Positions 43 to 23,973 of a stretch of 23,973 bases of DNA are shown in pieces (position 1 is the stretch's first letter; each line of letters opens with the position of its first letter). Below the pieces are notes generated by a model. That model searched no databases and was not told the origin of the DNA. It saw nothing but the letters and a program-made list of their open reading frames with translations. The position numbers and the translations under genes are program-made. Origin of the DNA: Chrysochromulina tobinii (lineage: Eukaryota > Haptophyta > Prymnesiales > Chrysochromulinaceae); NCBI GenBank assembly GCA_001275005.1, contig JWZX01000970.1, positions 1-23,973 on the forward strand. Direction: 5' to 3'.

Positions 43-1927
43 TACTGGCGCGATGGACTCGACGGCGTGGCACCGATCGAGGTCATGAGCACCGAGGATC
101 GCGAGCAGCTCCGACGTTTCCGGTCCCTCGTAGCATCGGAGGCGCACCGTACCACCGCAGACGGCCGGCCGCCGTTCACGCTGCCGTTGGCCGAATGCTC
201 CCGCGACGAGTCCGCACGTCGCCTCGACGCCATCTCCATGGCCACCTGGCTTGATCGGCATGGACTCCATTCGGAGCCGCTGCGTTGGTTCGTCGAGTAC
301 GCGACGCGGGATGACTATGGAGCCAGCCTGAACGCGACATCGGCATGGGCGGCGCTGCACTACTTCGCATCGCGTGACTCTGAGGAGCGCTTCGAATTCC
401 CAGAGGGCAACGGCCAGATTGTATACCGGCTGCTGCAGGAATTGAGCGCCGAGGAGCAGCGGCCGCAATTCCCCACAAGCAGCAGCGGCGCCGGCTCCAG
501 CAGCAGCGGCGCCGGCGAGGTAGAAGGTTGGCTGCGCACTGGTACACTGGTCTACACCATCGAGCCCACAGCCCCTGCGCGCGCATGCAAGTGCTCATCA
601 CGGCGCTCATCTCTCCCTAATTAGGTGCCCTGGTCTACTCCATCGAGCCCACAGCCGGCGGCGCCGTCGCGGGCGTCCTCGTGCGTTACGCGCAGCAGCC
701 GAAGCCGCGCCCGGCGCCCGACACAGCGCGCCCGACAGAGCGCGCGACCGGGGACCTCCGCAGCGAAGCTCTGGTGCGGACGCTGCACGCACGCCGGGTG
801 ATCTACGCAGCCCCGCTCTTCACCGCCGCGCACATCATCCGAGGCTGGCATGCGACGTGGCTTCGAGAGTTCACGTAAGCGCCGTCGTAGGCGCCTGTGG
901 CCCGTGGGCCCACCTGCGGCCTGTGGCCTGTTGCCTGTTGCCTGTGGCCTGTGGCCTGTGGCCTGTGGCCTGTGGCCCGTTGCCACGCCCACCTGCGCGC
1001 GCATGCTTTGCTGACCCGCCTGTCAGCACTGGCACTCCCCCTATTTTCGTCGCCACTCGCCACTTTCCCTATTCAGGTATGCGCCGTGGGTCGTGGCCAA
1101 CATCCACCTGCGCGCGCCACCCGCCGACGGGCCCGCGCGCTGTGACAATGTCATCTATCGAGCGCCGGGCTTGGGGTATACACTCTCCATCCACCCGCCC
1201 TCAAGCTGGCTCACCGCCGCCGCTAGGGTGAGGAGCAGGCTGGGTGGCGGAGGCACTCGTAGCACGACCAGCAGCAGGGGCAGTGGGGGCGGCGGCGGCG
1301 CGGTGCTCACCTATTACAAGGCGCTCGCGTCGGAACCGCCCGAGACGGCGCGTGTGCGCATGGCGGCTCGCTCGTGGGAGCAATGGCGGGATGAGGTGCT
1401 CGACTTATGATCACACCTGGTTGTCATTCACACCTGGTTGTCATTGATTGCGCTCGATTGAGGGATGAGGTGCTCGACTTATGATCACACCTGGTTCTCA
1501 TTGATTGCGCTCGATTGAGCTTGATTGAGCTTGATTGAGCACATGCTTGCCTCCCTCCTCAGGTGCTCGATGAGCTTGATTGAGCTTGATTGAGCACATG
1601 ATTGCCTCCCTCCTCAGGTGCTCGATGAGCTTGATTGAGCTTGATTGAGCACATGCTTGCCTCCCTCCTCAGGTGCTCGATGAGCTTGAGATCGCGCACC
1701 CGGGACTGCGCGCGCTCGCCACACAGCTGGACGTGCGGCTGCTGGGCCATGCGATGACCCGACCGACCCCCGGCCTCGTGCATGGCGTGGCGCGCGCAGC
1801 GGCGAGCGGCGAGCGGCCGCACGGCGTCGTCCACTTTGCCCACTCCGACCTGAGCGCGCTGCCGCTGTTTGAGGAGGCCGTCTATTGGGGGCAGCGCGTG
1901 GCTGTGGAGGTGGCGTTGGCACTCTGA
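1..1927 (+). CDS. Flavin amine-oxidase-family FAD-dependent oxidoreductase, 3' part (5' end outside window)
   Basis: Spliced gene entering from the left in frame 1. Exons: 1-541, 625-874, 1077-1395, 1673-1927 (TGA at 1925-1927), giving 454 residues in the window. All joins keep frame (phases 1, 2, 0). No ATG precedes the readable part, so the N-terminal dinucleotide-binding domain must lie upstream. Motifs seen: LRWFVEYATRDDYG and SAWAALHYFASR in exon 1, LVYSIEPT then RRVIYAAPLF in exon 2, YAPWVVANIHL, DNVIYRAPGLGY and AVLTYYKAL in exon 3, GHAMTRPTPG and FAHSDLSALPLFEEAVYWG in exon 4. From family knowledge this is the C-terminal half of a flavin-containing amine oxidase/phytoene-desaturase-type protein. 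The last motif resembles the C-terminal segment that closes the FAD site. Substrate unknown. A Gly run (1-36) and a Ser/Gly insert (about 478-520) are low-complexity. The family call is fairly firm and the substrate is open. Confidence 0.8.
542..624 (+). other. Intron 1 of the amine-oxidase gene (83 bp)
   Basis: Donor at 542 (ACTG then GTACACTGG), acceptor ending at 624 (CTAATTAG). Splicing joins G541 to GT625 and gives WLRTG-ALVYSIEPT; unspliced reading hits TAA at 619-621. The first 32 bases of the intron match the first 32 bases of exon 2 at 29 positions, so the intron begins with a diverged copy of the exon that follows it. This is the cleanest single-duplication intron in the window. Confidence 0.85.
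875..1076 (+). other. Intron 2 of the amine-oxidase gene (202 bp) with a 7-bp minisatellite
   Basis: Donor GTAAGC at 875, acceptor CTATTCAG ending at 1076. The join gives REFT-YAPWVV, which restores the conserved YAPW segment. The intron holds nine copies of a 7-bp unit (CTGTGGC, variants CTGTTGC and CCGTTGC) at 921-983, followed by a pyrimidine-rich tract before the acceptor. The intron start (GTAAGCGCCGT) and exon 3 start (GTATGCGCCGT) match at 10 of 11 bases, a weak form of the duplication signature seen in the other introns. Confidence 0.8.
921..983 (+). repeat. 7-bp tandem repeat, nine units, intronic
   Basis: Nine consecutive heptamers of CTGTGGC type, six of them identical (units 1 and 4-8). 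The array lies wholly inside intron 2 of the oxidoreductase gene. No coding role is supported. Confidence 0.9.
1396..1672 (+). other. Intron 3 of the amine-oxidase gene (277 bp), a tandem array
   Basis: Donor at 1396 (GATGAG then GTGCTCGAC), acceptor ending at 1672 (CTCCTCAG). The join gives WRDE-VLDELEIAHPG. The intron is made of units starting at 1396, 1470, 1563 and 1618 (74, 93, 55 and 55 bp), each opening with GTGCTCGA exactly as exon 4 does at 1673. The last two units copy exon 4 for 17 bases (GTGCTCGATGAGCTTGA). Before the second unit, the exon 3 end GGGATGAG is duplicated too. Inside are repeats of TTGATTGAGC. Each boundary is AG|GT, so several splice pairs are possible on paper. Confidence 0.85.
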
Positions 1928-2361: not shown

Positions 2362-4551
2362 ATGACGCTCTGCGCAAGGCCGAGGATGCCATCCTCGAGC
2401 TGGGCTCTGTCGTGGCTCGTAATGGCGTACGTCGTGATGGCCCACGCCGCTGCGCAAGCGGTCGCGCTTCTTGCGCTCGATCTAGTTGCACTGCTCGCGG
2501 CTCACTCACTTGGTGCTTGGGCACTGAGATGCCGCGCGTTGCCCTGGCTGCAAGTATTGGCAATCGTGATCGCTCCTGTCACCATGAGTGGCGAATCGAG
2601 ACTCCTCTGCGCGACTGCGTCCTCTGCTCTACTGCTTCATCACAGCATCCAGAGACTCGGCAATCAGAGACATTGCACATCCGACACGATTGCATTCGTA
2701 ATCCTCCAGCTTGTTCTGTGCCCTTCGACGTGCTTTGCAGAATCAAGCTCCTCCTCCTCTGCCAGTGTGTTCTTCCAGAGGCCTTCCGGGTTTCATTGGG
2801 TGCTGTGCTGCGCGGTTGTGCTTTTCGGAGCAGCTCTTGGCCGTGTCATCCTTGAATTGATGGCCTCGGAGTGCACCTCAGCGGAGAAGGTCGTCAGCTT
2901 GCCAGCTGCGCCGGCTATGCCATCTGTGCAAGCTGTTGTGCGGCCAGCTCTGCCAGCTCTCCTATCTGCATCAGCTCCCGCACCTGCTGCGCCTCACGCA
3001 GCCGCAGCCCTGGCGTCGGGGCCAGCTTCTTCTCTAGGGACAGGTCTCATCGATTGGGACCAGATCGAGGTCCTCCACCAAATCGGCAGAGGAGCGTACG
3101 GCTCGGTCTTCGCCGTCCGTTACTTTGGCTCGATGGCCTCTCTCAAGCTTGTGCACCGGAGCCAGACGAGCCAGCAGTGCCTGAGGCGCGAGACGGAGCT
3201 GATGCTGACGCTCCGCCACCCGCACGTGTGCTCGACGCTCGGGTTCGTGAGCGACGGCCTCGAGCGCCACGGGCTGCTCATGGAGCTGATGGCGAAATCG
3301 CTCGAGCAGCTTCTCAAGGATGATCACAAGCGGCAGGGTGGCGGCAAGCTCACTCACGTTCACGGAGCTAATGACGAGCCCAGCAAAGATCTGCTGTGCT
3401 GGGCCACACCGTTGCTTCGCATCGCCTTGCAGGTCGCCCAAGGAATGTCCTATCTGCATGGTCGACACGTCATCCACGGCGACCTCAAGGCGGCGAACGT
3501 GATGCTCGGTCCAGAGCCGCTCCTGCAAGTCAAGCTAGTCGACTTTGGCGAGGCGCGCCGTCTTGAGCAGAGTCCGAGCGGCACGTTCATGGGGCGTGAA
3601 CTGTCCGAGCGAGCTGATGTGTGGTCCTTCGGCGGTCTGCTGGTGCACCTTGAGAGACGCCAGCCGCCGTTCAACCCGGCGCCGCCCTTGCCGTGGCTGA
3701 CGAGCATGGAGCGTGGCGAGATAGAGACGAGCTGGCCGCCTGCTCTAGGTACGCTGGCGCTTCGATGCTCGATGCTCGGTGCGGATTGTAAAGGCGTGCA
3801 AGTGAGCTTTGCCGAGTGCGTCGCATCCTTAAGGGCTGTCGCGAGTAGCCTCGGTGTGGCCACGCCCTTTATGGAAAGCAGCACCGACTGGCCGCGCGCA
3901 ATCTCTCCAATCCAGCTCTCACGCCAGCTCTCGCCTTGGGCTTTCTCCCCACGATCTCAAACGTCAGTCTCCCTCTGGTCAGCGAGTAGCCGAGAAGACT
4001 CTCAACTAGACTCTCCCTCTGGCCAGAGCGATAGTGCACTTACCGGTAGCACGGCACCGGGTAGCACGTGCACCGCAACCTCCAGGGGGCTAGCTCGCTC
4101 AGGGATTTCAGAGACCAGCCTGCTCAACATGAGCGCAAGCCCAATCCCCGAATGGTGCTCAGGCCGAGGTGCTGCTGCCGAGGCCATCCCGGGTGCCGCT
4201 GCCGCTCACAAAGCTAGCGTCACTGCTGGCCGGTTTGCGAGTTGCGGCTCGTCGGATTCGCTCGCGCAAGATGCTGCGGATCTGACGCATCATTCAACTT
4301 CCGGTATGCTGATCAGCAGCACACCGCCCACACCCACGCCCAGCGATGCGCGGCTATCGATGCAATCCACGGAGGAGGCAATGTTGGCGCGGCCTATGCA
4401 TCCTCTACTCCAAAGTCGGCCTCAGGTGAGCCTGTCTCTCCGGAAACGAAGGAGCTCAGCTGAGTGGAACTCGCCGCTACTCCGCACAACTTTGGGGTCG
4501 CGGCGCCTCAGCAGGGATGACGCACCAGATCTCCAGATCGTCTTTGGCTGA
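2362..4551 (+). CDS. Multipass membrane protein kinase, TKL-like
   Basis: One uninterrupted frame, 729 residues from the first in-frame ATG (2362); the ATG at 2386 is an alternative start. Residues about 10-170 contain four or five hydrophobic stretches and so look membrane-embedded. Residues 230-500 are a kinase domain: glycine loop GRGAYGSV near 240, Lys262 in ASLKLV, catalytic loop HGDLKAAN with Asp374 and Asn379, DFG at 394-396, and DVWSFGGLL in the F helix. The HRD arginine is glycine, and the usual APE is replaced by GRE in a short activation segment. The remaining 230 residues are Ser/Thr/Pro-rich and look disordered. Lys, Asp, Asn and DFG are all present, so activity is expected. From family knowledge, HGD loops are common in algal TKL kinases. 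The membrane-to-cytosol layout suggests a surface or organelle-membrane signalling kinase; ligand and substrate are unknown. Confidence 0.82.
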   Translation: MTLCARPRMPSSSWALSWLVMAYVVMAHAAAQAVALLALDLVALLAAHSLGAWALRCRALPWLQVLAIVIAPVTMSGESRLLCATASSALLLHHSIQRLGNQRHCTSDTIAFVILQLVLCPSTCFAESSSSSSASVFFQRPSGFHWVLCCAVVLFGAALGRVILELMASECTSAEKVVSLPAAPAMPSVQAVVRPALPALLSASAPAPAAPHAAAALASGPASSLGTGLIDWDQIEVLHQIGRGAYGSVFAVRYFGSMASLKLVHRSQTSQQCLRRETELMLTLRHPHVCSTLGFVSDGLERHGLLMELMAKSLEQLLKDDHKRQGGGKLTHVHGANDEPSKDLLCWATPLLRIALQVAQGMSYLHGRHVIHGDLKAANVMLGPEPLLQVKLVDFGEARRLEQSPSGTFMGRELSERADVWSFGGLLVHLERRQPPFNPAPPLPWLTSMERGEIETSWPPALGTLALRCSMLGADCKGVQVSFAECVASLRAVASSLGVATPFMESSTDWPRAISPIQLSRQLSPWAFSPRSQTSVSLWSASSREDSQLDSPSGQSDSALTGSTAPGSTCTATSRGLARSGISETSLLNMSASPIPEWCSGRGAAAEAIPGAAAAHKASVTAGRFASCGSSDSLAQDAADLTHHSTSGMLISSTPPTPTPSDARLSMQSTEEAMLARPMHPLLQSRPQVSLSLRKRRSSAEWNSPLLRTTLGSRRLSRDDAPDLQIVFG

Positions 4552-8400: not shown

Positions 8401-11400
8401 ATCTCGGCGTATTCGAGATGGCCCGAGCCGTCCGCGTCGAGCGCGTGGAAGACCGCCTCCACATCCTCGTCCAGAAACCCCGCCTCGGCCGACAAGCCCA
8501 GCGCACGGATGCCATGTGTGAACTCGGCGAGGTCGATGGAGCCGTTCTTGTCCGAGTCCCAAGCCATGAAAAGTGTCACGATGCGCGAGGCAGCAGCCGC
8601 GAGGCGTTCGAGGACCACCGATTGCACGTACTCACGCCGGTTGATGGTGCCAGAGCCGTCCAGGTCGATGGCCCGAAAACGTGCGCGCAGCATCTTGTCG
8701 TGCAGCAGCTCGGCATTCGGCTCCGTCCTGCGCACGAGCGCGCAGTATGCCTCAAAGTCAATCTCGACAGCCTCGCCGCCGTCAGCATCGAGCTCGCCAC
8801 CGCTACCGAGCAGCGCCGCCATGCCGTCTTCACGAAGCTCAACGCCATCCGAGGCACGCAACGAGACACGGCGCACGGGCACCAGGTTGCCCTTGGCATC
8901 GCGTGGATACCTGATGAGGGATGCATTCATACGCAATCATACGCAATCCAGATGCAATCCAGATGCAATTAAGGAGCGTGGGCAGGTACTTGATGAGGCG
9001 ATTATGAGGTCATCAGTGCCAATCAATGGTCATCAGTGCCAATCCTTGGAGCTCACCTGATGAGAGGATTACTCAGAGGTCATCAGTGGCAATCAGAGGT
9101 CATCATTGCCAATCCTAGGTGTCGCGTGCGGTACCTCGCCATGAACCCTTCGCCGAGCTGCAGCTGCAGCCCACGGCGCGTCGTGTAGGCGGTGAGCAGT
9201 AGGGGCAAGTTCAAGATTGGGTCGGAGACGCCGCCGCCGCCGCCCGCGCCCTTATCGCCGCCCTCGAGCGCGTCGGCGCTCTGAGCCGAGGCGGCAGCGA
9301 CGGCCGCTAGGAAATCTTTGAAGGTGATGCGCCCGTCGTCGTCGCCGAAGTTGCTCGTGCCGTCGCCGGTCGTGTCTAGGCTCTGTAGAGTTTTGCCGAC
9401 CGTACCGGTAATCGAGTGCGGCGCGTCCGGGTTGGCGACGTCGATATCTCGGAGCACCTCGAGGATCTCCGCGAGCGAGATCGAGCCTCGGCCGTCGTGG
9501 TCCAGCTCCTTGAACGCCTCGCGCATCTGGAGCTGCGCGCCCTCGGATAGAGCGCCTCCCTGAGGGGCCGCGACCGCGATGTGACCTACCGGCGCGTGCT
9601 TTTGGAGCCATGAGGCAACCGCCCACCCATACACCTTGGGCGGCTGCAGCGACTCGAGAGGCTTACGCTTCAGCACCGCGAGCATCGCGTGCTGCTTGAG
9701 CTGCCCAGGCACGCGCACGAGCATCGGGCGTTCGATGAACTCGAAGCGCGACCGGTTGGCTTGCGAGGTCGGCCAGTCGACAAGAACGGGATGCTCCGCA
9801 GTGCAGAACGCGAGCATCTGTGAGGCGAGTTGGAGCGGCTCGCCAATGAGCATGTACTCTCGGCGCGTCTCGCTGCCCGCCGAGCCGATCCAGACTTTGC
9901 CGGTGAGCACCACCGCGAAGGACTCGATCCCGAGAGGACGCAGCTCGGAGCGCACCTAATTAGGGGCGCAATCATGGCTCATCAGATGCAATCAAGTCAT
10001 CAAGAGGGCGCAGCTCGGAGCGCACCTCCGTGGCCGCCTGCATGGCGCCCAGCGCACAGCCCACTTCCGAGTGCTCGAAGGGAGGCAGCCCGAGGCAACC
10101 GACGACCGTGCACCCCTCTTCCGACTGAATCATATGCTTAAAGGTCCCCCTGCACTTGTACAGGGCGCGCTGGAAGAGAGCCGTCGCCGCCGTGTACGCG
10201 GCCACTTGGTTCATCCGAGAGGCTACCATCGGGGGCTTGAGGCGCACCAAGAGGAGAGTGACTATGCGCGTCTCGGAAGGCTTCACAATCCAGTCGGCGT
10301 CGTTGGCGAGGATCCGCCCCCAAATCGGTCCGGGCACGTACCTGTGGGGAAAAGGGAACACGCGCCATGGTGAGCACTCGCATGCTAGGCGAGGATCCGC
10401 CCCAAATCGGTCCGGGCACGTACCTGATGAGCGAGGCAATCAGAGGCCATCAGAGGCCATCAGAGGCCATCAGAGGCCATCAGAGGCCATCAGAGGCCAT
10501 CAGAGGCCATCAGAGGCCATCAGAGGCCATCAGGGAGGCAATCAGGAGCCATCAGGGGGCACGTACGAGCGGAGCGCCTTGAGCGGCACGCGTCTCATAT
10601 ACTCCTCCCGTTCGGCCTGCGCGGCGACACCCAGGGCCTCCGAGCCTGCCGCGTACGGCGCGAGGCCATTCTCGACGGGCAGTCGTTTCCATTCCTCGAG
10701 CCCCATCGCGGGTTGGAGGGCTGTCATGCCGTACTCGCCCCACAGACCCTCACCGATGAGGAGCTCGCCCGGTTCACACCTCGATAAGACCTCCTGAGCT
10801 GCCGCGAGCTCGGCCCCGCAGACGACGTACTCCCACCTGCCGTTGGCACCGCCCACGTGCATCGCCTGCGCCCTAGCGAGATGCAGGCAGCCGCTCACAT
10901 GGAGCCGGAAAGAGAGGCCGCCCTCCGCCTCCACGCGCTGCGCCTCCTTAACCGCATCAAGAAAGCTCAGTCCCCCGCTCCCCTTGTTTGCCGCCTTAGG
11001 CCGTAGCGCCCCAAACTTCGGAGTCTTCTCTCGGGACTTGGGTCGATACCCATCCCCGCCCGTGCCGTGCGCGCTCATGCGCGCCCAGAGCGATTTATTG
11101 GGCTTGTCCTCGGACGCGGCCTCCGAGGCCGCGGCAGGCGTGGCGGCGGCGGCAGGTGTGGCGGCTGCGGCAGGCGTGGCGGCATCGGCAGGCGTGGCGG
11201 CTGCGGCAGGCGTGGCAGCTGCGGGCTCGGCAGCCGGAGTCTTGGGGTGTCCCAGAGGCTCAGGCCGCCATAGGACGAGGTTATTGAGCTGCTCGAGCGT
11301 CTCGAGCGCCGCTGCACTCGCCGCATTCACCGCCTGCTTCATCGCCGCAGCTGACGGTTGTGACGCGCTCGGTGGCTGCGGGGCATCGGACGCGTCCAGT

Positions 11401-11933
11401 GTGCTGTCGCCCTCGACATCGGGCGCGAGCGACCAGACGGCGAGCGCCATGTCGCCAGCCAGGCGCAGCAGCTCGCCACCGCGCTGCGCCACCACGGATG
11501 CGATCGTGGAGGCCACCTTTGCCACGCGCTCTGCGGTGCCGTTGGCGTCGGCTGGCCATGGTAGCTCGGGCAATGAGTGCATGCCAGTGAGGCGCAAGCA
11601 GAGGTAGACGCCGAAACGCTCGCGCGGGAGCCGTGGGTTGTACGCCTCATTGTGCACGCCATCGTGCAGCTGCAAGATCAGCCCAGTGGGCAGGTATGAG
11701 GCGATCGCCAGATGCACGCGCCGCTCCTTGGACAGCTTGGTGGCCGTGCTGATGGCGCCGAGCACATTGCCGCTGATCTTCGCACCGCGCTTCCACGCTC
11801 TCGAATGCAAGTTGATGCCACGACTGGGAGCAACGACTGCACGTGTGGCATTGGGCGGTGATGTGGGAGCAACGACTGCACGTGTCGCCTTGGACGGTGA
11901 CGAGGGAGCGAGCGCTTCCTTGGCCTGGTCCAT
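5432..11933 (-). CDS. Soluble-adenylyl-cyclase-like (ADCY10-type) protein with EF-hands and C-terminal ankyrin repeats; catalytic residues apparently lost
   Basis: Exons (minus strand): 11933-10567, 10341-10026, 9955-9135, 8910-5432; phases 2, 0, 2; roughly 1990 residues. Start is the ATG at 11933; a stop lies just upstream. Residues about 75-160 and 310-435 resemble the first cyclase homology domain of soluble adenylyl cyclase, and 457-615 the second (GCTVVGCLGLP, then RREYMLIGEP). Aligned by eye with the mammalian enzyme, the first metal Asp is Arg114; Asp151 (in LAGDMALAVW) is kept. In the second domain the ATP-site Lys, Thr, Asn and Arg become Glu531, Met596, Gln603 and Gln607. Canonical EF-hand loops: 713-724, 917-928, 953-964, 993-1004; a degenerate one lies near 755. 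A long Pro/Arg/Ser-rich linker follows, then about two ankyrin repeats (encoded about 5870-5690) and an acidic tail. Near 7905 the frame shifts by one base at a C7 run. Probably a calcium-binding pseudocyclase; all as one gene is inference. Confidence 0.72.
8911..9134 (-). other. Intron 3 of the cyclase-like gene (224 bp)
   Basis: On the minus strand the donor is at 9134 (GGCGAG then GTACCGCACGCGA) and the acceptor CTCATCAG ends at 8911. The join gives GFMAR-YPRDAKGN in phase 2. The intron start GTACCGCACGCGA and exon 4 start GTATCCACGCGA match apart from a one-base gap and one or two substitutions. The body is an array of ATTGGCA, TGATGACC and TGATTGC motifs, with a second internal CTCATCAG|GT site near 9053-9062. 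Confidence 0.8.
9956..10025 (-). other. Intron 2 of the cyclase-like gene (70 bp)
   Basis: Minus-strand donor at 10025 (CACGGAG then GTGCGCTCCG), acceptor CTAATTAG ending at 9956. The join gives AATE-VRSELRPLGIES in phase 0 and restores the second cyclase homology domain. The first 23 bases of the intron match exon 3 at 22 positions, and the copy decays after that. The body contains TTGATGAC, TTGATTGC, ATCTGATGAGC and ATGATTGC. Confidence 0.88.
10342..10566 (-). other. Intron 1 of the cyclase-like gene (225 bp), two nested units plus a minisatellite
   Basis: Minus-strand donor at 10566 (CGCTC then GTACGTGCCC), acceptor CCCCACAG ending at 10342. The join gives KALRS-YVPGPIWGRILAND. A second unit begins at 10423 after its own acceptor CTCATCAG. 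It copies the first roughly 36 bases of exon 2 with one G missing, so splicing to 10423 would shift the frame. The first unit contains nine perfect copies of a 10-bp repeat, each with a CTGAT box. Confidence 0.85.
10441..10530 (-). repeat. 10-bp minisatellite, nine perfect units, intronic
   Basis: CAGAGGCCAT repeated nine times on the + strand, that is ATGGCCTCTG in the sense of the host gene. Flanking bases carry degenerate copies (10531-10560). Because each unit-to-unit junction recreates CTGAT, the array is a ladder of branch-point-like pentamers. It lies inside intron 1 of the cyclase-like gene. Confidence 0.95.
11131..11220 (-). repeat. 18-bp coding repeat (Ala/Thr/Pro linker), five units
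   Basis: Five 18-bp units of GCGGCAGGCGTGGCGGCT type on the + strand. In the minus-strand gene they encode repeated AATPAA hexapeptides. They form a flexible linker between the two halves of the first cyclase homology region. The unit length is a multiple of three, so copy-number change keeps the frame. Confidence 0.9.
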
Positions 11934-12263: not shown

Positions 12264-15200
12264 ATGGCGCCTGAAGCCCCTGAGGTTCCTTCCGAGGAAT
12301 GGGGATGGTCTCGAACGGCCTTGGAGCGCTTCAGCGCGCGGACGGCCCTCACTTGGGTCGATGCCTCGGTGAGGCCCGCGAATGCACGCTCCGTGACTTA
12401 CGCATCGCTCGTTGCATGCGCGTCCAAGGTGACCGATCTCATCCGTCGTCTGGATGACGAAACGCCTGCCTCGTCGCCGATCGCATTATGCCTCGACAAT
12501 GGCCTAAGCTTCGTCACGTGCATGCTCGGCGCTCTGTGGGCGGGTCACTCCTTCATGCCCGTGGCGATCGACCCGCAGGTGATCCAGATGCAGATGCTCG
12601 GCATGCTGGCCCAGATGCATGTGAAGATCCTCTTCTGTGCCCCCGAGCTCGTGCCCGCCGTGCAGGCCGTCGTCGCACGGTGCGCGCACCCCGTGCACGT
12701 GTGCGTGCTCGACGACGACGAAGTCCTCTTTCCCGCCAAGGCGCGGCACTGCATGGCCCTGGCGCGTTCACTGTACGGGGCATACAGTGACGCGCCGGTG
12801 CTGCCCGCGCTGCCAAGAGCGCGTTGCCACGAGCGCGTGTGTACGTTCCACACCTCGGGTACTACGGGTACGCCCAAACCGATCCACAACAGTCACGCCG
12901 AGTGGGCCGCGTTCGTACGAGCCGCCGCGGCGGCGTATCACATGACGGCGGACTCTCGTGTCTTCGTCGCGACCTCCCATATCTTCGACCCGTCGGCAGG
13001 TCTCACCTTTGCCGCACTCGCTCTGGGCGCGTCGGCATGCCTCGCGCCGTGGGCGCACACGCTCACCGAGCTGCGCGCCTCGATCGAGCTGACGCACGCA
13101 ACCCATGCGTGCTCGACACCGTCCGTTTGGGAGCTGTATGAATTAGGTATGCATCACGCCGCCGACGACGACGACGCGCAACACACCGCCGCCACCACCG
13201 CCGCGCATCACGCCTCCGCCTCCGCCTCCGCCGCCGCCTCAACCACCGCCTCCGCCACCGCCACCGCCACCGCCACCGCCACGCTGCCACACGCCGCCGC
13301 CTCTGGCACACCCCCTGGCACGCCCCGCGACTCTGAGCCCATATTAGGCAATGGCACGCCCCGCGACTCTGAGCCCAAATTGGGCGACTCGCCCATATTA
13401 GGCAATCTGACGCCGTCGTCGACGTTGCAGACGGTGATGCTCGGGGGGGAACCGATGCCTGTTGCGCTGGTACGCCGTTGGCTTCGGCGCGGCGTGCGGC
13501 TCATCAACACGTACGGCACGACAGAGGCCACCGTGTACCAAGCGACACACGAAATCCCACAGGACGTTGCTGAGCTTGACGAGGAAACGATCCGCGAGCA
13601 CGCTCATACCATCGGCATCCCATTTGAGGGCATCCAGATGAGCGTGATTCGGTGCGCCGATGATGACGAGGGCCATCAAGAAGCTGGAGGGATGGCAAGA
13701 GCAATGGGCAGCGTTGGTACCGTCCAGGCAGCAGCTGCGGAGCAGGCGGGGGAAGAGGCGGAGGCGAGGGGGGGGCTAGTCGAGCTTGTGCTGCATGGGG
13801 TCCAGGTCGACGGCGGAAGCGCGGCGGGATTTCGCACCGGCGACCTCGTCCGTCGGTCAGTATCGGGTCAGTGGCTCTTTGCAGGGCGCGCGGATCGACA
13901 GGTCAAGCTCGACGGGCGGCGCATCGAGCTCGGCCCGATTGAAGAAGTCATCAGTCGTAGGATGCGCCCGCTTGTGCAGCGGACGGTCGTGCAGCTCGTA
14001 GGCTCCCCTCGCCGCTTGCATGCCTTCTGTCAGCTCGAGCAACCAGAGTCTCTCGGAGCTGCCTCTGGCGAGCTGGCAATGGCGCACGCCGCGACGGTGC
14101 GTCAGCTCTGCGCGCTCGAGCTGCCGCGCTACTTGGTCCCCGCCGGTGTCACGTTCCTAGAGCGACTACCCGTGACTCCCACAGGAAAGCTAGATCAACG
14201 GACCCTTGCGCTCCTGCACGAGCGCCAGTGCTCCTTGGCCGCCAGCGCGGAGCTCTGTGCGCGCTCCGAGGAATCTGCCCGTGACGGCATGTGGTCACCA
14301 GACGGCAGCTGGCTGCACACAGTTGCATGCTGCTGGGCTGCGGAGCTTGGCTTGCCGCTAAGCCGGCTGAGTGCGCGCTCCAACTTCCAACGGCTGAGCG
14401 GCAACTCGCTCGTGGCGCTTCGCATTGGCTCACGGCTCTGGCAGCAGCGCGTGTCATGCCGGGCGGAGCTTGGAGGTGACCGAATTTGTCACTCGGAGTT
14501 TGGAGGCGCCTTTGGAGAGCGGATGGGCGTCTTTGCGCCGATCACTCTGCTGACTACGCCGGTGCTCGAGGAGTACGCTCAGGCTACGGCGCCTGCCGCG
14601 TCGGAAGCTGCCTTCGATGAAGCTCCCTCGACGGAGGAGGTGGTTTCAATACCCCTCGACGAAGCTCCCTCGACAGAGGAGGTGGATTCAATACCCTTCG
14701 ACGAAGCTCCCTCGACGGAGGAGGTGGATTCAATACCGGTGGCCGCTGCTCGGCCCACGCAGCTAGGGTCGTGCTCGGCCGACCCTAACTCTGCCGTCCG
14801 TCCGTCCTCGAGCTCATCGGAGATCGATGAGCTCGCGGGTCAGGCAGTGAGCCTGGACGCGGTCGCACTGCTGCGCCTGCTCCTGCTGCAGCACGACTAC
14901 ACGCACACGGTCGACAATGACCTTCTCATCGCCGCAGCGCGATCGAGCTCGAACGGTTGCGCGGAGCTACTGCTGCAGCACGGTGCCTCACCCAACGCCA
15001 TAGGGTTTGGTGCCTTGACGGCCCTGCACTTTGCCTTGCAGCGCCGGAACACGGTACTCGCGCAGCTCCTTCTGATGACCTCTGATTGCATGCTGATTGC
15101 CACTAATTGCCTCCTCGAGGCAGGTACTCGCGCAGCTCCTGCTGATGACCTCTGATTGCATGCTGATTGCCACTAATTGCCTCCTCGAGGCAGGTACTCG

Positions 15201-15918
15201 CGCAGCTCCTGCTGATGACCTCTGATTGCATGCTGATTGCCACTAATTGCCTCCTCGAGGCAGGTACTCGCGCAGCTCCTGCTGATGACCTTTGATTGCA
15301 TGCTGATTGCCACTAATTGCCTCCTCGAGGCAGGTACTCGCGCAGCTCCTGCTGAGCAGCCGGGCCGACGTGCGTGCGACGGACGAGAATCAGCAGACGG
15401 TGCTGCACCATGCTGCCCGTGCGGGAGGTGACGCGCTCTGCTTTGAGATGCTCCTCCGAAGCTATGCGGCAAGTACGTCCGAACCTGGAACACCTGGAGC
15501 AGCAGAGGCCGCAGAGACGGCAGAGACGGCAAGTGTGGCCGAGGTGCGGGCCGAAGCGCCGGAGCCTGGCATCGGTCGTGTCAGTAGTCACACAGGCACA
15601 CATTCGCATTCACACGTCGATCATGAGGCGTGTGGGCGGCTGGACAAGTGGGGGCGACTGCCACTGCACTGGGCGATCGTCAACGGCCATCGAGACGCGA
15701 TGGTGGCGCTCGTCGAGGCGGGCAGCAACGTGTGGCTCCGAGACTTTCAGCATCAGTCGTCGATGGACTTGGCCGAGGAGAGAGCGATGTGCCGCGAGTG
15801 GTTGAATGGGTCCGGCAACGATGGCGGGAGGTGCGATCAGCTCACTCTCTCGATGCTCAAGCTGATGGCTGGTGGTGCGGATGCTGCCACGGCAGTGCGG
15901 TGCGAGACAAAGGTGTGA
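12264..15918 (+). CDS. AASDH/ACSF4-like adenylation protein: adenylation - carrier - ankyrin
   Basis: Exons 12264-15053 and 15334-15918 join in phase 0 (1124 residues). Start is the first ATG of the frame. The adenylate-forming domain spans residues about 10-660: FHTSGTTGTPKP at 195, HIFDPSAG, NTYGTTEAT at 415, FRTGDL at 523, GRADRQVKLDGRRIELGPIEE and PTGKLDQRTL with the A10 lysine. The aspartate in FDPS is the residue that usually contacts an amino-acid amine. A carrier domain follows with GNSL, Ser715 being the likely phosphopantetheine site. After three 14-residue acidic repeats come about four ankyrin repeats (to residue about 1080) instead of the PQQ-type propeller known from animal AASDH. 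Expected chemistry: ATP-dependent activation of a small amino acid and loading onto its own carrier arm. There is no condensation, reductase or thioesterase domain, so the acceptor is unknown; the ankyrins may dock the target. Confidence 0.82.
13147..13401 (+). other. In-frame low-complexity segment, possibly a retained or optional intron (255 bp)
   Basis: This stretch inserts 85 residues rich in His, Ala, Ser and Thr, plus a doubled GTPRDSEP motif, into the adenylation domain between WELYEL and LTPSSTLQTVMLGGEP. It opens with GTATGC right after ATTAG and closes with CATATTAG, so GT-AG splicing would remove exactly 255 bases and give YELGNLTPSSTLQTV, which is closer to the family. There is no stop, so either reading works. 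Confidence 0.45.
13216..13285 (+). repeat. GCC/ACC-type simple repeat in the adenylation gene
   Basis: Runs of GCCTCC and GCCACC hexamers encode alternating Ala/Ser and Ala/Thr. They lie inside the in-frame low-complexity segment. Two copies of a roughly 24-bp unit containing CGCGACTCTGAGCCCA follow (about 13318-13380). Confidence 0.85.
14613..14738 (+). repeat. 42-bp coding repeat, three units
   Basis: Three in-frame 42-bp units encode (F/L)DEAPSTEEV(V/D)SIP. They lie between the carrier domain and the ankyrin repeats and form an acidic linker. The copies differ at only a few bases, so expansion was recent or is being homogenised. Confidence 0.95.
15054..15333 (+). other. Intron of the adenylation gene: four tandem 70-bp units (280 bp)
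   Basis: Donor at 15054 (AACACG then GTACTCGCGC), acceptor GAGGCAG ending at 15333. Units start at 15054, 15124, 15194 and 15264, and the downstream exon starts with the same sequence at 15334. Each unit is about 22 bases copied from the exon (encoding VLAQLLL of an ankyrin helix), then about 48 bases containing CTGATGACC, TGATTGC twice and TAATTGCC, ending in GAGGCAG. The units differ at only two positions that I can see. Removing all 280 bases gives RRNT-VLAQLLLSSRADVRA, which restores an ankyrin repeat. Because 70 is not a multiple of three, leaving one unit in shifts the frame. Confidence 0.92.
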
Positions 15919-16219: not shown

Positions 16220-17450
16220 ATGCTCGTTCTGTATACCCCTGTTGTCGCCTCCGTGATGTGGTCCGCCGCAACGGCAGGGCCGCCAGACTTCTCCAACGTC
16301 AGCTACGCCGACTTTCAGCACCAGTACGGCCGCGAGCCCTATGCCCTCCTCGGTGGCCTCAACCGTGAGGCGCTGTTTGAGGAGAACAAGAAGAAGGTGC
16401 TTGCGCAGAATGTCAAGTACGCAGCCGGCGATTCAACATGGTGGGCGGCCATCAACGAGTATGCCGATTGGACGGACGCCGAGTTTGCCTCGCAGAAGAC
16501 CAGCCGCAGCCCCATCCTCGGCAACCTCAAGGCATCCGGCCGCGCACTGGTCGAGGAGCGCGCCAACAACCCTGCTGCCTTTGACTGGCGCACCCGTTCG
16601 CCTTCCATCACGACGCCCGTGAAGAACCAGGCCTCTTGCGGCTCGTGCTGGGCCTTCGCGAGCACTGCCGTGCTCGAAAGCCACTACGCACTGTATGCCA
16701 AGTCCAAGGGCCTTCTCGTCCTCGCACCGCAAACGCTCGTCAACTGCGCCCCCAACAATCTCCACTGCGGCGGCACCGGCGGATGCGAGGGCTCGATCCC
16801 GGAGCTCGCGTTCAACGTAAGGAGATCGCAGTCGAACCACTCCCTTGCGCGCTCCTGACTCATCGGTGACGCCAGCGCTCACCACGGCGCTCGCGTTCGA
16901 CTGCTCCTCGCCGAGCGATGCGCGCGCGTCTCCGCAGTACACGATCGCACACGGCATTGCTCTCGAGAGTGACCTGCCGTACGAGGCGCACGACGAGCCG
17001 TGCGACGAGTCCGTGCCCAAGGCGGTCACGGCCACCTCGTACGTCAAGCTCCCCGAGAACTCGGGAGCTGCACTCGAGATCGCGATCTCGACCGTTGGAC
17101 CGATCGCCGTCAACGTGGCCGCAAACTGGAAAATCTACGGCGGCGGCATCTTCTCGGGGGGCTGCGACACGAACGCATGCACGCTCAACCACGTGGTGGT
17201 GGCCGAGGGCTATTCGCAGCCGGGCGCGACCGACCCGGAGGGTTACTGGACCATCCGCAACTCGTGGGGCGAGGGGTGGGGCGAGAAGGGCTACATTCGA
17301 CTCTCTCGAAAGTTCGATAACACCACGTTCGTGGACACGGACCCGGCCTCGGGCGTGGCGTGTATGCCCTTCCCGCGCACTCAGATCGTCGGTGGCGAGT
17401 CAGGCCTCCTCTTCGACATGAGCTACCCGACCGGCATGAAGGATGCGTGA
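16220..17450 (+). CDS. Papain-family (C1A) cysteine protease, secreted or vacuolar
   Basis: Exons 16220-16816 and 16938-17450, phase 0, 369 residues. The first ATG gives a hydrophobic N-terminus (LVLYTPVVASVMWSAATA) that looks like a signal peptide. Residues about 25-110 are an I29-type inhibitory prodomain (FEENKKKVLAQN, INEYADWTDAEF). The mature enzyme begins near AAFDWRTR. Catalytic residues are all present: Gln137 and Cys143 in KNQASCGSCWAF, His284 in LNHVVVAEGY, Asn307 in IRNSWGEGWGEKGY. Splicing joins PELAFN to YTIAHGIALESDLPYEA, as expected for the region before the second half of the papain fold. Length is ordinary for the family. It should be made as a zymogen in the secretory pathway and act as an endopeptidase in a lysosome-like compartment or outside the cell. 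I see nothing degenerate. Confidence 0.93.
16817..16937 (+). other. Intron of the cysteine protease gene (121 bp)
   Basis: Donor GTAAGG at 16817, acceptor TCTCCGCAG ending at 16937. It is the only intron here whose downstream exon does not begin with GT (it begins TACACG), and it lacks the CTGATTGC vocabulary. The end of exon 1 (CTCGCGTTCAAC, 16805-16816) recurs inside it with one mismatch at 16890-16901, which may be chance or a faint duplication remnant. Confidence 0.88.
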
Positions 17451-18056: not shown

Positions 18057-19958
18057 TCAACTGATGATGGTGATGCGCCTTCGCTGCGGGGTGATTGTGG
18101 GCCGAGGGTCCAGCTCCGATGGTGGGGGCAGCTTAGGTGTGGGGAGCTCAGATGGGAGCATCTGTGGAAGCATCTGTGGGAGGATGGCGTCTGATTGCGT
18201 CTGATTGCGTCTGATAGCCTCACTCATCAGATGGCCTCCCTCATTAAGCATCTGCGGAAGGATGGTGTCTGATTGCGTCTGATTGCGTCTGATAGCCTCA
18301 CTCATCGGATGGCCTCCCTCATCAGGCATCTGTGGAAGGATAGTGACGCGCCTCCTCTGCGACCGAACAGGCATCGAGGGATGAGGGAGCAGCGCCGGCG
18401 GTGGCGGCGGCGCAGGTGGTGGCAGTGCGCCAGCGCTCAACGTGACGGTGCCAACGGTCGTGGCGGGCCGTGGCAGCAGAGCTGGTGACCACGCAGCTGG
18501 TGTCTTCACAGCTGGTGTCTTCACAGCTGGTGTCTTCACAGCTGGTGTCTTCACAGCTGGTGTCTTCACGGCTGGTGTCTTCATGGTCTGCGTCAGCGGT
18601 GGTCCTACCGGTGGAGCGCCGTGTTGGGCATTTGGCGCGCTGACCATGAGCGTACTCAGCGTATCGAGGAGCACATCGCGATCACGCCGCGCCGCATGCT
18701 TCTCACGATCCGCCTGCAGCAAGGCCGCCTGTGTCTTCGCAAGCTCGGCAGATCGGCTAGCGAGCTGGCTCGCGAGATCCTCAAGGCTGGCGAGCTCCGC
18801 AGATCGGCTCGCGAGCACAGCGGTGCGCGCCTCGGCGGCCTCGAGAGTCTCCCGAGATCGGATCTCGGCGCCAATCTCGGCGCCAATCTCGGCGCGCGCC
18901 TCGGCGGCCTCGAGAGTCTCCCGAGCCGATCTCGCGAGCTCGGCGGCCTCGAGTATCTCGGCGTCCATCTCGGCGCCAATCTCTCTCGAATCATGAGCGC
19001 CCTCCCTAAGCTCCTCGCCGATCAACCTGCTCACGACAGCGCTCTCGCGCACGACAGCGCCCTCCCTCAGCTCCTCGCCGAGCAACCTGCGAGCGGCGAT
19101 GGCGAGGCCGTCGGTGGGCAGGGTGCTGCGAGGATGCCGCCGCTCGACGACAGCGCTGCCGCTCGGCGACGTCGGCAGGCTTTCCAAGCTCTCCCGAAGC
19201 TTCATAAAGGGGTGTGCTTTCTCACACCATTGGCTCCATGCAGGGAGGAGTCGGCGCATGTACAGTGCGGCCAATGCGGGTGCGAGGCGCCGCTCCTCAA
19301 GCTTCCGAACTCGAGCGTGCGCGCGTAGCCGACGCAGCGCTCCACGGCAACTGTGGATGCGATATAGGCTAGCGGCGACGTGGCGCTCGATGCCGTTCAG
19401 CAGAACCAGCCGGCACGCCGCTATCCACCTATGGACTGCGCGCTTGCACGCTGCGCACCATCGTAGCCTCTGAGCCTCTTGCGTACTCAATGCGTGCCAA
19501 AGCGCGAGACATCGCAGCGTGGAAAAGCAGCGGCTGACGCGGTGCACGTCCGCCCGTACGACGAGCCGGTCGACAGAGCGAAACGCACGTAGCTTCTGCA
19601 GATTCCTGCGCAGCCACCACTCAGCTGCACTCTCGAGAGCGCTCCGGAGCGCCAGCCGTTTCGAGACGAAGCGTCGCCATTTCGCCCATCGGAGCCGCTC
19701 ATCTGTCAACTGGTCAGAGCTCAGCTTGCGCAGACCAGCGAAATTGCGCTCCTCTGGTGGTGCCGGTCTCGACCATCGCTCCACTCGTCGCTGTGCGAAC
19801 ACCTTCTTGAAGTGCCGTTCTCGGAAGTGCACCGGGCAGAGCAACTCGCCCGTGCTCGTATCGACGCACGCCAGCGCGCGCTCGACTGGCCGCGCACATA
19901 CGGCGCAGGTTCCATCCGCAGGGCGCAGCTCTCTGGCGCTCGAGGGCCACATGAGCAT
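18057..19958 (-). CDS. Zinc-finger plus SFI1-like helical-repeat protein with repeat-rich C-terminus
   Basis: Single minus-strand frame, 633 residues from ATG 19958; the frame continues upstream without an ATG, and Met3 is an alternative start. Residues 18-49 form a probable zinc site of B-box type: Cys18, Cys21, Cys31, Cys41, His44 and His49 in CAVC...ELLCPVHFRERH. Residues about 75-310 are rich in Trp, Leu, Arg and His with short repeated helices (RWAKWRRF, ECLALWHAL-like RCLALWHAL, LLPAWSQWC), resembling SFI1/centrin-binding repeats. Residues about 350-470 are heptad-like, with repeated LLGEELREGA and SRETLEAAEAR, so probably coiled coil. Then come six PAVKT repeats, a proline run and two 26-residue repeats that are antisense copies of the intron motif family. 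A centrosome, basal-body or cytoskeletal scaffold role is an inference from the repeat type. Confidence 0.62.
   Translation of the reverse strand: MLMWPSSARELRPADGTCAVCARPVERALACVDTSTGELLCPVHFRERHFKKVFAQRRVERWSRPAPPEERNFAGLRKLSSDQLTDERLRWAKWRRFVSKRLALRSALESAAEWWLRRNLQKLRAFRSVDRLVVRADVHRVSRCFSTLRCLALWHALSTQEAQRLRWCAACKRAVHRWIAACRLVLLNGIERHVAASLYRIHSCRGALRRLRAHARVRKLEERRLAPALAALYMRRLLPAWSQWCEKAHPFMKLRESLESLPTSPSGSAVVERRHPRSTLPTDGLAIAARRLLGEELREGAVVRESAVVSRLIGEELREGAHDSREIGAEMDAEILEAAELARSARETLEAAEARAEIGAEIGAEIRSRETLEAAEARTAVLASRSAELASLEDLASQLASRSAELAKTQAALLQADREKHAARRDRDVLLDTLSTLMVSAPNAQHGAPPVGPPLTQTMKTPAVKTPAVKTPAVKTPAVKTPAVKTPAAWSPALLPRPATTVGTVTLSAGALPPPAPPPPPALLPHPSMPVRSQRRRVTILPQMPDEGGHPMSEAIRRNQTQSDTILPQMLNEGGHLMSEAIRRNQTQSDAILPQMLPQMLPSELPTPKLPPPSELDPRPTITPQRRRITIIS
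18171..18340 (-). repeat. 78-bp coding repeat, antisense copy of the intron-type motifs
   Basis: Units start at 18171, 18249 and (partial) 18327, so the period is exactly 78 bp or 26 codons. On the minus strand they encode DEGGHPMSEAIRRNQTQSD followed by ILPQM. On the + strand they read GCGTCTGATTGC three times, then GCCTCACTCATCAG and GCCTCCCTCAT(C/T)A. These are the same words found in sense orientation in introns elsewhere in the window, here lying antisense in a coding region. Confidence 0.88.
18494..18583 (-). repeat. 15-bp coding repeat (PAVKT), six units
   Basis: Six units of CAGCTGGTGTCTTCA on the + strand; only the last differs (CGGCTGG). They encode PAVKT repeats in the SFI1-like protein. 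The TP-K pattern might suit proline-directed phosphorylation, which is speculation. Confidence 0.95.
18826..19095 (-). repeat. Imperfect coding duplications in the coiled-coil region
   Basis: The stretch GCGCGCCTCGGCGGCCTCGA occurs near 18826 and 18895. A roughly 33-bp CTCCCT(A/C)AGCTCCTCGCCGA block occurs near 19002 and 19061. GGCGCCAATCTC occurs three times (two adjacent, one further on). They encode ETLEAAEARAEIGAEIGAEI and doubled LIGEELREGA segments. Units keep the frame. Confidence 0.75.
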
Positions 19959-20787
19959 CGTGTTCTGCAATCGTGTTCGATCGCCTTTGTGAACGTGAAC
20001 AGGGTTTGTGAACGTGAACAGGTTTTTGAACGTGAACACGACACACGCGTTGTGTGTGAACAAGAATGTAGACACAACTCGGCCACTAGGAATCCATAGT
20101 AGGAAATCCCTAGTAAGATAGATTATTAAGGAGGCGTGGAGGGCGTAGGTACGTGTAGCCGCCCATGGTCGCCCACCTCGTTAGTTACTTGAACTTGAAC
20201 TTGAAATTGAACTTGAACACTTGAATGGTACGGTCCGGTGAGACAAAAGACAACTTTTCTAAGCACTAAGGAGGGCGTACAGGCCCTTCAGTAGTATACA
20301 TGTAGTATCTTGGGGGGTTGTCGTGTCTTGACTCTTGTTGAGATAGTTCTAGAGAAAGACTACGGGAGTGAAATGGGCGGGAATGGGCGGTTCATATATT
20401 GGCTCTATTGCGTCATGCTAAACGTTGCGTATGCCGTATCGTTAAGTATCGGCCGCCGCACGCGCCGCCGGGGGCGCGTCACCGTCTTATCACCGTCATA
20501 TAACTCGAGCCTGCGCACGACCGTGCAAGCCTGCAACGCGTCCGTCGACGCTCTCGAAGTGTTGCTGTCGGGCACTGACATCGCGAATCTATTTCGCTGA
20601 AGTCTCAGAAGGTCGGGTGTGTGCATTATATAAATCGGTCCCCTTGCATGCTCGTATACATGTAGTACGTCTGTAGCGTCTGGGAGCATCATGGTGAGTA
20701 CGTGAGAGCTCACACAGGACGTATCTGGGTAATATGTACCTCCCACCAATCATCAGTCAGTCCGCGGCGATGGAGTGCAGTAGCTCG
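19959..20787. other. Upstream region of the SFI1-like gene and 3' flank of the bestrophin gene
   Basis: About 830 bp. Three copies of GTGAACGTGAACA-like sequence (19991-20037) and a GAACTTGAACTTGAACTTG repeat (about 20188-20220) lie upstream of the SFI1-like start and could be promoter elements or just simple repeats. A TATATAAAT string lies at about 20634. The longest + strand frame here (ending at 20600; 61 residues from its only ATG) shows nothing recognisable, so I do not call a gene. Confidence 0.45.
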
Positions 20788-22221: not shown

Positions 22222-23973
22222 ATGCTCTTTCGCGTCATAGGGGGGTCTCGCCTCGCGAGCTCGGCCCGCCCGCTGCTCGCGGCCCGCCCACTGCTGGCTA
22301 CCCGCCCGCTCTCAACACTGCCCCCCAAGCGCAACCAATCTACGGCCATCGTCGACGACGTCGACGAGGAGGCGGAGTGGGACGCTGCCTTCTTGGAAAT
22401 CGCGGACAAAGTGTACGACTCTTCGCGCAACCACCAGGACTCGGCCGCCGGGCTGCGGCAGCTGATCAAGAGCGGCCTACTCAAGCACACCGATCTCCGC
22501 GACCGTCCGGACCGCTTCTTCCGTGCCCACCGCCTCCTCGGCCGCTACGCGGTCGACCACGGCCCCGGCTTTTGGATCCGATTCACCGTGCACTACAATC
22601 TGTGCTTCGGCACCGTGCTGGCCGTGGGCGGGCCCGAGCAAGTCGACAGCATGGCGCGCGTGCAGGAGGACGGCCTCCTCGGCTGCTTTGCGCTCACCGA
22701 AAAGCTCGCGGGCGTCCAGTCGGGCCTGATCGTGCAGACGCGCGCCGAGTACGACAGCAAGACCGACACGTTCGTGCTCAACAACACGGGCAAGACGACC
22801 GGCGCGTACAAGAACTGGATCTCGCAGGGCTTCGTCGCCGACAAGGCCTGCGTGGTCGCCGATCTCACCGTCGGTGGCGAGCGCAAGGGGCCGCACGCCT
22901 TCCTGATGGACCTGCGCCGCAACGGCCAGCTCGTCGAGGGTGTCTCCGTCGGCGACATGGGCATCAAGACGACCGGCAACGACCTCGACAACGCCTGGAT
23001 CGCGCTCGACAACGTGCACGTGCCGCGCACTGCCTTGCTCAACCGGTACGCCGCGGTGGGCGCGGATGGTGCGTACAAGCAGGCGTCGGCCGACATCAAG
23101 CCGTTCGAGATGATCGGCCAAAGACTGTACACGGGTCGCGTGGCGGTGGCCCAAGCGGCCCTCTCATACCGTCGGCGCCTCTTCGAGAAGACGAAGGCGT
23201 ACGCGGACGCGAAGCCGATCCCCGCCTTCGGGCGCGGCACGGCCACCCTCTCGTCCATTCCACAGCTCAGGGCTCTCTTCGCCGAAGCGGAGGTGACAGC
23301 GGCGGCCCTCGAGGAGTATCTGAAGATCTCTGATTGCATCTGATGACATCTGATTGCCTCCCTCATCAGGTGACCGCGGCAGCCCTCGAGGAGTATCTGA
23401 AGATCTCTGATTGCATCTGATGACATCTGATTGCCTCCCTCATCAGGTGACCGCGGCGGCCCTCGAGGAGTATCTGAAGATCTCTGATTGCATCTGATAA
23501 CATGACATCTGATTGCCTCCCTCATCAGGTGACCGCGGCGGCCCTCGAGGAGTATCTGAAGATCTCTGATTGCATCTGATGACATCTGATTGCCTCCCTC
23601 ATCAAGGTGATGGCCCTCGAGGGCGAGCAGCTGCTGCCGGCGCTCCTCGCGCAAGTCGAGGCCACGCTCACAGAGTGCGCGCGTGCCAAGGGGCTGACGC
23701 TACGCCCCCGTCGCGCCGCCGCGGGCACCAACGACAGCGGCACATCCGACAGCGGAATCGCCGTATCGAGCGCCGTTTCGAGCGCCGTTTCGAGCGCCGT
23801 GCGCGCCGTCGTGGTGAGCGCAATTGCCAATGTGCTCAACCACGCCTTCCGACGCCACGTGGCGAGCGTTACGTGGAGCGCGGGCGGATTCGATCGCTTC
23901 AGAGACTCGAGTGGGGGCGGCAATGGGGGCGCGGTGGTGGCAAGGGCGGCAAGGGCGGCAAGGGCGGCGGCGG
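22222..23973 (+). CDS. Acyl-CoA oxidase-like flavoenzyme with a mitochondrial-type presequence (3' end outside window)
   Basis: Exon 1 is 22222-23292, exon 2 runs from 23607 past the window end, phase 0. The first 40 residues are Arg/Ala/Ser-rich without acids (MLFRVIGGSRLASSARPLLA, then a near-repeat of ARPLLA), typical of a mitochondrial presequence. The acyl-CoA oxidase/dehydrogenase fold follows: GCFALTEKLAGVQSG (flavin and substrate region) near residue 154, GAYKNWISQGF, VGDMGIKTTGNDLDNAWI and LDNVHVPRTALLNRYAAV near 250-275, then the helical domain (RVAVAQAALSYRRRLFEKT, SIPQLRALFAEAE). This resembles peroxisomal acyl-CoA oxidases more than dehydrogenases. The expected reaction is FAD-dependent alpha,beta-desaturation of acyl-CoA with transfer to oxygen, in beta-oxidation. 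Splicing continues AEAE-VMALEGEQLLPALL. Exon 2 then turns low-complexity (three AVSS units, Gly-rich). The catalytic base and C-terminal signal cannot be judged. Confidence 0.82.
23293..23606 (+). other. Intron of the acyl-CoA-oxidase-like gene: four tandem units (314 bp)
   Basis: Donor at 23293 (GCGGAG then GTGACAGCGG), acceptor CCTCATCAAG ending at 23606. Units start at 23293, 23370, 23447 and 23529 (77, 77, 82 and 78 bp); the third has a 5-bp AACAT-type insertion and the fourth one extra A. Each unit opens with about 33 bases of exon-like sequence (encoding VTAAALEEYLK) and closes with TCTGATTGCC then CTCATCAG. Exon 2 opens with a shortened version, GTGATGGCCCTCGAGG. Retaining the array gives a stop within 20 codons. 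Confidence 0.88.

Follow-up and report, generated by a model that had tools for sequence, protein, structure and literature searches.

In the sections of the introner survey cited here (PMC9860276), introner families range from 5 to >2,000 copies of 30-654 nt and recruit splice sites in both directions. Most families with determinable features resemble DNA transposons with short target duplications, which measure 3-9 bp for some earlier families, for example 4 bp in Chrysochromulina and Symbiodinium and 8 bp in Aureococcus (PMC9860276). Introner elements of Amoebophrya, in the excerpts cited, carry direct repeats of 3-5 nt, inverted repeats of 8-20 nt and mostly non-canonical borders (PMC7789003). 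Here we describe a stretch of 23,973 nt from the haptophyte Chrysochromulina tobinii (contig JWZX01000970.1, C334), hereafter the window. Judging by sequence, at least seven of its nine introns are most probably introners, that is, tiny non-autonomous mobile elements that turn into an intron on insertion.

Like the introners of the survey, as far as the cited sections describe them, these are short, dispersed, intron-creating elements of high copy number in a probably aquatic host, with one splice site from the element and the other from the target duplication; unlike them, they show variable duplications of 16-36 bp and arrays of element plus duplication (PMC9860276). Like the Amoebophrya elements, they form repeated introns bordered by direct repeats, and they differ from what those excerpts describe in having long direct repeats and GT-AG borders (PMC7789003). 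The apparent new part is the duplication, compared with the 3-9 bp that the cited sections give for earlier introners. Within the covered text of the open-licence PMC literature we met no introner family with family-wide duplications of this length, and we therefore class the elements as introners and leave the mechanism open. The terms for target duplications are absent from the paper on mirusvirus introners (PMC12768974). Single repeats of that size have already been reported, since the direct repeats described by Rogers and Bendich near 213 introns of all kinds, in the part cited, span 4-30 bp with a mean of 11.4 (PMC11782384).

As sequence together with protein homology indicates, a unit of mostly 38-61 nt enters an exon, and 16-36 bp of the target are duplicated on either side. 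The candidate branch point of the element, identified by the consensus, reads CTCAC in family A and either CTGAT or CTAAT in family B. The element also has a pyrimidine tract and ends in CAG or TAG, the predicted 3' splice site, and the duplicated target would supply the 5' splice site. In individual cases the roles appear reversed, with GT from the element and AG from the duplicated target, and in others the flanking repeats may let the unit multiply in tandem. Splicing could then remove the insert, which has become an intron, and leave the protein unchanged.

Exon copies and element families

For each intron of the window, named here by its first position or its limits (Table 1), we aligned the first 60 nt, or the whole intron, to its own downstream exon and compared the result with 4,000 coding 60-mers starting with GT. 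Using the first 60 nt, the test gave p=0/4,000 for introns 542, 9956 and 15054, followed by 875 (p=0.003), 23293 (p=0.008), 10342 (p=0.011), 1396 (p=0.048) and 8911 (p=0.10). Using the whole intron, it gave 0/4,000 for 1396 and 10342, 0.00025 for 875, 0.017 for 23293 and 0.31 for 8911. A preliminary description of this DNA had proposed that eight of the nine introns copy the exon that follows them, which holds beyond chance for seven of these eight and fails for 8911-9134. It had also singled out the intron of a papain-type protease gene as the only ordinary one. The downstream exon is indeed not copied there (p=0.34), yet the last 60 bases of the intron resemble the upstream exon through a CTCGCGTTC repeat (p=0.016).

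In single-unit introns the exon copy is confined to the first 16-36 nt and the remainder is not from the gene. This non-exonic part falls into two dispersed families: family A is built around GCATGCAAGTGCTCACCACGGCGCC...CCCCACAG, and family B is built of CTGATTGCCT-like steps and ends in CTCCCTCATCAG. Exon copy and original are identical at 29/32 bases for intron 542-624 (family-A core at 583-605), 22/23 for 9956-10025, 24/24 for 10342-10566 (39 with one gap), 22/22 for 15054-15333 and 17/17 for the last unit of 1396-1672. Intron 875-1076 contains a second exon-matching piece, CCACCTGCGCGCGC, at 989-1002, this piece and the tail being assigned by eye. An 8-nt gap, also placed by eye, separates the exon copy from the exon in 23293-23606. 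Within the protease intron, a stretch at 16867-16889 resembles the family-A core; as coding DNA contains stretches like it, chance may account for the likeness.

Copies were counted across the genome (53.15 Mb in 2,253 contigs), inside introns or elsewhere, using a 24-mer with <=2 mismatches for family A and a 20-mer with <=1 mismatch for family B, which gives lower bounds. Family A has at least 2,171 copies (1,046+1,125 on the two strands) and family B at least 1,945 (954+991), compared with 0 for the reversed pattern of either family. Exact family-A cores number 768 (390+378). Searching 3-32 bases after the core, with one place found counted twice, 477 of them reach CCACAG, 456 CCACAGG and 410 CCACAGGT; GT follows CCACAG in 410/477 cases (86%), compared with ~6% expected from base composition. 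The steps of family B have a period of 10 bases, as seen at 10433-10555 of the window and at L023:8391-8597, and might be the trace of a short RNA template that was copied over and over.

Everything that needs flanking sequence rests on a 317-kb sample made up of the window, L001 and 29 further 10-kb stretches, each from the head of a contig chosen by its number, the L-numbers denoting sampled stretches. A loose family-A pattern has 21 matches in this sample; 7 were judged by eye to be chance and the other 14 form the strict set, of which 12 lead to AG and then GT. Family sequence lies within introns in the window and at L002, L009, L018, L020, L022, L023 and L028. The suggestion that the pattern reaches beyond the window is borne out by the same structure at these other loci. 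In IMG/VR one contig (L031) carries an exact family-A core at 4495-4518 of 4,554 bases, and its other open reading frames (ORFs) look phage-like; it is probably a chimeric contig end. The match places family A in a second data set. The exact family-B 20-mer has no match in IMG/VR.

The mechanism first put forward for these introns was a tandem duplication of an exon segment containing AG|GT, as proposed by Rogers. Intron starts do copy exon starts and tandem arrays exist, and as in the Rogers introns of PMC4974935, in the part cited, the copied exon sequence leaves the protein unchanged. This model needs an AG at the end of the upstream exon and an intron end that copies the upstream exon. Only 4/8 upstream exons of the window introns end in AG, the others ending in TG, AC, TC or CG, and 0/8 intron ends resemble the upstream exon (p 0.22-0.76), so the model fails. 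The repeat ceases at the splice junction, with an exact leftward extension of 0-4 nt in 15/18 units; the other three (16, 27 and 41) lie in arrays. Moreover, the non-exonic part exists as thousands of dispersed copies and therefore is not producible by local tandem duplication. Clear single-unit introns already contradict the model: unlike in Rogers introns (PMC4974935, same part), most of their length is not exon copy, and AG|GT is not required. We regard such an origin as extremely improbable. What stands is the more general claim that exon-duplicating insertions gave rise to the introns, for which both the exon copies and the element structure speak.

Target duplications and splicing logic

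Duplication lengths were measured on 18 hand-picked units, one of which (57, inside an array) was dropped. In the remaining 17, the duplication is 16-36 long with a median of 24, and the element part measures 38-61 nt in 14 and 131, 161 and 213 nt in the other three. Perfectly identical repeats of 16, 17, 22, 24 and 27 bases occur; since they differ in length, the variation is not due to decay. A flanking direct repeat (score >=13) accompanies 12/14 strict family-A copies, compared with 4.7% of 2,618 control positions; discounting a single low-complexity match leaves 11 copies. In looser sets, flanking repeats are found in 12/21 family-A and 11/20 family-B copies, compared with 3.9% of 3,000 control positions. 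The 5' end of family A is ragged, with 0-16 bases between the first repeat copy and GCATGC.

An exon copy joined to an element forms the tandem unit that makes up all or part of introns 15054, 23293 and 1396, and tandem multiplication of finished units does occur in these three as a later step. Intron 10342 holds two units of different families and therefore looks like the result of a second insertion at the same place rather than of multiplication. Elsewhere in the genome, some exact family-A copies lie within 71-85 bases of one another, and their tails match or are alike (contigs C88, C90 and C365). Long direct repeats around an element are substrates for slippage or unequal crossing over, so a unit could be multiplied or removed exactly. 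The internal units of arrays could also be accounted for by local duplication of an old intron tail together with the exon start, as described for the potato RdRp gene in the cited part of PMC4974935, in which case no new intron was gained. The single-unit introns lack an older 5' part (e.g. L020 1600-1665) and the elements are dispersed genome-wide, which makes this explanation very unlikely.

If the repeats were unrelated to splicing, taking out the stretch between them should restore a reading frame at the same rate for every pair of bordering bases. Repeats that give an open coding frame only on removal number 11 for AG|GT (ten introns, one with two) and 0-3 for the 15 other pairs. In the 29 other loci alone, AG|GT scores 7, the top of 256 combinations, with a mean of 0.55 over the other 255. 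Recruitment of the 5' splice site from the target duplication, a trait of introners, appears to be present here, as read from the measured units and from the 410/477 family-A ends that continue as CCACAGGT. A gene-model-free scan of close direct repeats was non-discriminating and was discarded; its results are dominated by coding and simple repeats, so that AG|GT lies outside the top 20 of 256.

The strumpellin gene of L020 has four introns (Table 1). We compared it with 16 homologues chosen from 120 listed, ranging from close relatives to Rattus, dog, Dictyostelium and Guillardia. Both sides of junctions one to four align well in 15, 15, 14 and 14 of the 16, none of which has an inserted residue; P0077 and P0037 each end within the compared stretch at one junction. 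Three of the four introns carry duplications. The second (L020 1600-1665) is made of a 27-nt copy and a 39-nt element, and the third (L020 1219-1362) holds two family-A units and no detectable exon copy. In the fourth (L020 884-999), GT comes from the element start and AG from the duplicated target, an arrangement also found at L002 2188-2274. Together with two junctions of a cyclase-like protein in the window, the four strumpellin junctions mark inserts that would be removable without coding change, as predicted from the homologues. A hint of polymorphism comes from P0037, a near-identical strumpellin that lacks inserts at junctions one and two and seems to enter the third intron and then stop. 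If it was predicted without splicing, the first two introns would be absent in its strain; if it came from a splicing-aware caller, only the removal of the two introns would follow. Searched against solved structures, strumpellin gave no match at E 0.001.

Junctions and genes of the window

Junctions were also predicted with a crude coding-score hidden Markov model (HMM) that was trained on long ORFs and is blind to repeats. It reproduced four junctions to the base, 8910/9135, 9955/10026, 10341/10567 and 23292/23607. It also overlooked the gene at 1-1930, placed the end of the 15054 intron at 15627 and made further dubious calls. Homologues of the cyclase-like EF-hand protein on the minus strand (11 examined of 15) give 0 inserted residues at junction 9956-10025 in 9/9 and at 10342-10566 in 8/8 of those that cover it. 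Junction 8911-9134 is weakly supported, because the homologues diverge downstream of it. Junctions 542, 875, 1396, 15054 and 23293 are predictions set by reading frame and splice signals, and among 16 matched solved-structure sequences none aligns as far as junction 23293. The protease intron is better placed at 16817-16937, where the junction reads FN|YTIAHG and aligns gap-free to a cathepsin-L-like chain.

The cyclase-like EF-hand protein is long and occupies 5432-11942 (-). In its near relatives P0161 and P0162, the called proteins seem to begin inside the 8911-9134 intron, apparently a gene-caller artefact. In the gene at 12111-15917, ankyrin repeats follow an AMP-binding enzyme that weakly matches a phosphopantetheine site. 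Of 31 bestrophin matches, one is from Prymnesium polylepis, at 40% identity, and others are nearer. The antisense family-B units at 18168..18345, within an ORF on the minus strand, agree with insertion in either orientation.

Table 1. Predicted features, with positions in the window unless a sampled stretch or contig is named
Feature	Position	Strand	Structure and remarks
Introner intron 1, family A	542..624	+	exon copy 542-573, element 574-624 ending TTAG; exon original 625-656
Intron 2	875..1076	+	degenerate exon copy broken by (CCTGTGG)n array 913-977, then family-A-like tail
Intron 3	1396..1672	+	distinct 5' part plus 55-nt units (tandem repeat), last 1618-1672; exon original 1673-1689
Intron 4	8911..9134	-	family-B-like by eye; HMM junction; exon copy not significant
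Introner intron 5, single unit	9956..10025	-	exon copy 10003-10025, element 9956-10002; exon original 9933-9955
Introner intron 6, two units	10342..10566	-	exon-proximal unit 10342-10423 family A; other unit family B
Introner intron 7	15054..15333	+	tandem array of four 70-nt units; exon original 15334-15355
Papain-type protease intron	16817..16937	+	GTAAGG...CCGCAG; contrast case of the window
Two family-B units with flanking repeats	18168..18345	+	antisense within ORF 18057-20180(-), open in that frame
Introner intron 8, acyl-CoA oxidase-like gene	23293..23606	+	four ~77-nt units, family B; HMM junction
Strumpellin gene, first intron	L020 2567-2651		
Strumpellin gene, second intron	L020 1600-1665		
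Strumpellin gene, third intron	L020 1219-1362		
Strumpellin gene, fourth intron	L020 884-999		
Exo_endo_phos upstream of RVT_1	C367, C767, C914, C962, C1004, C1323, C1586, C1728, C1778		

Mode of insertion and meaning for intron gain

Target-primed reverse transcription typically leaves duplications of variable length, elements that are ragged at the 5' end and constant at the 3' end, and no terminal inverted repeat. In four family-A elements we found no terminal inverted repeat (4/15 end-aligned matches each; 0-6 of 15 across seven elements). Since duplication is variable, the 5' end ragged, the 3' end mostly constant and the inverted repeat missing from these four family-A elements, target-primed reverse transcription by a long interspersed nuclear element (LINE) would fit. 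This suggests that family-A elements were inserted in the manner of a short interspersed nuclear element (SINE), whose retrotransposition shows the same variable duplication and ragged 5' end; the constant 3' end is only partly shown. We know of no SINE of ~40 nt. Reverse transcriptase (RVT_1) has 26 matches in the genome, 22 of them above the cut-off, and on nine contigs such a match is directly preceded, on the same strand, by one to Exo_endo_phos, as in LINEs. GIY-YIG endonucleases, sought for Penelope-like elements, gave 4 matches. Our tentative proposal, which we rate at less than even odds, is a retrotransposon-type introner, in which a SINE-like RNA of ~40-60 nt, consisting of hardly anything beyond branch point, pyrimidine tract and AG, would insert by target-primed reverse transcription with 16-36-bp duplications and make introns on a genome scale.

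Other modes of insertion bear on the same features. These introners might be non-autonomous DNA transposons, similar to miniature inverted-repeat transposable elements, moved by a transposase with unusually long staggered cuts. Of 130 introner families with determinable features, 59.2% carry target-site duplications, terminal inverted repeats or both, as stated in the cited sections of PMC9860276. One family-B element also starts with CTGAT and ends with ATCAG, a 5-base inverted match. The four family-A elements compared lack such ends, the 5' end is ragged, and the duplication is neither constant nor short, so we consider a transposase an unlikely agent. Alternatively, staggered double-strand breaks may have been repaired with filler copied from existing intron tails, as proposed for the neointrons of Daphnia pulex. 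These likewise have direct repeats between the exon edge and the opposite intron end, of 4-12 bp, and internal repeats (PMC4202315, in the part cited). Such repair would account for the variable duplication length and the missing terminal inverted repeats, and a 3' end fixed by splicing selection alone would also fit. Against it, 477/768 exact family-A cores reach the same CCACAG end, the duplications exceed those of Daphnia, and the elements form two dispersed families with thousands of copies, unlike the Daphnia neointrons in that part of the paper (PMC4202315). We therefore think break repair improbable as the source.

Returning to our main reading of the introns as introners, a number of observations, besides the inverted match in family B, weigh against it. 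Family B is the weaker case, with a flanking repeat at 4/8 strict copies, 3 of them in one array (control 6.6% of 2,900). For family A, 11/14 strict copies sit on just two loci, L018 and L020, and 291/768 exact cores lack CCACAG within 3-32 bases. AG abuts the repeat, as judged by eye, in only 7/11 clear family-A copies; of the other four, two show an extra four bases, one lacks AG there and one is an internal unit. The 3' end of family A could moreover be fixed by selection for splicing. The family-A core is stop-free in all three frames, so a copy whose length is a multiple of 3 could stay in the protein; L002 1970-2047, L018 3348-3425 and L020 1600-1665 are stop-free copies of such length and are possibly retained. 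In the 256-way scan some GC-rich combinations score 5-6, because they have more raw repeats, and cases with AG coming from the target show no enrichment as a class (2 compared with 0-2 in 15 controls). When intron starts were compared with their own and with shuffled downstream exons, only 5/70 HMM introns matched (score >=8), although the shuffles gave a mean of 0.095 and a maximum of 2 in 1,000, and many of the 70 look false. Finally, no LINE sharing an end with the elements turned up, and no search was aimed at one.

Where introns come from in bulk is an old question. An intron made of a 3' splice module and a long, readable copy of its target would make insertion site, donor site and relative age directly legible. 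The system offers a test of whether introns also arise by retrotransposition, and of whether long flanking repeats allow their precise removal. If the introners of C. tobinii are of the retrotransposon type, their long duplications would let recombination or slippage delete introns exactly or multiply them, and intron gain would be reversible.

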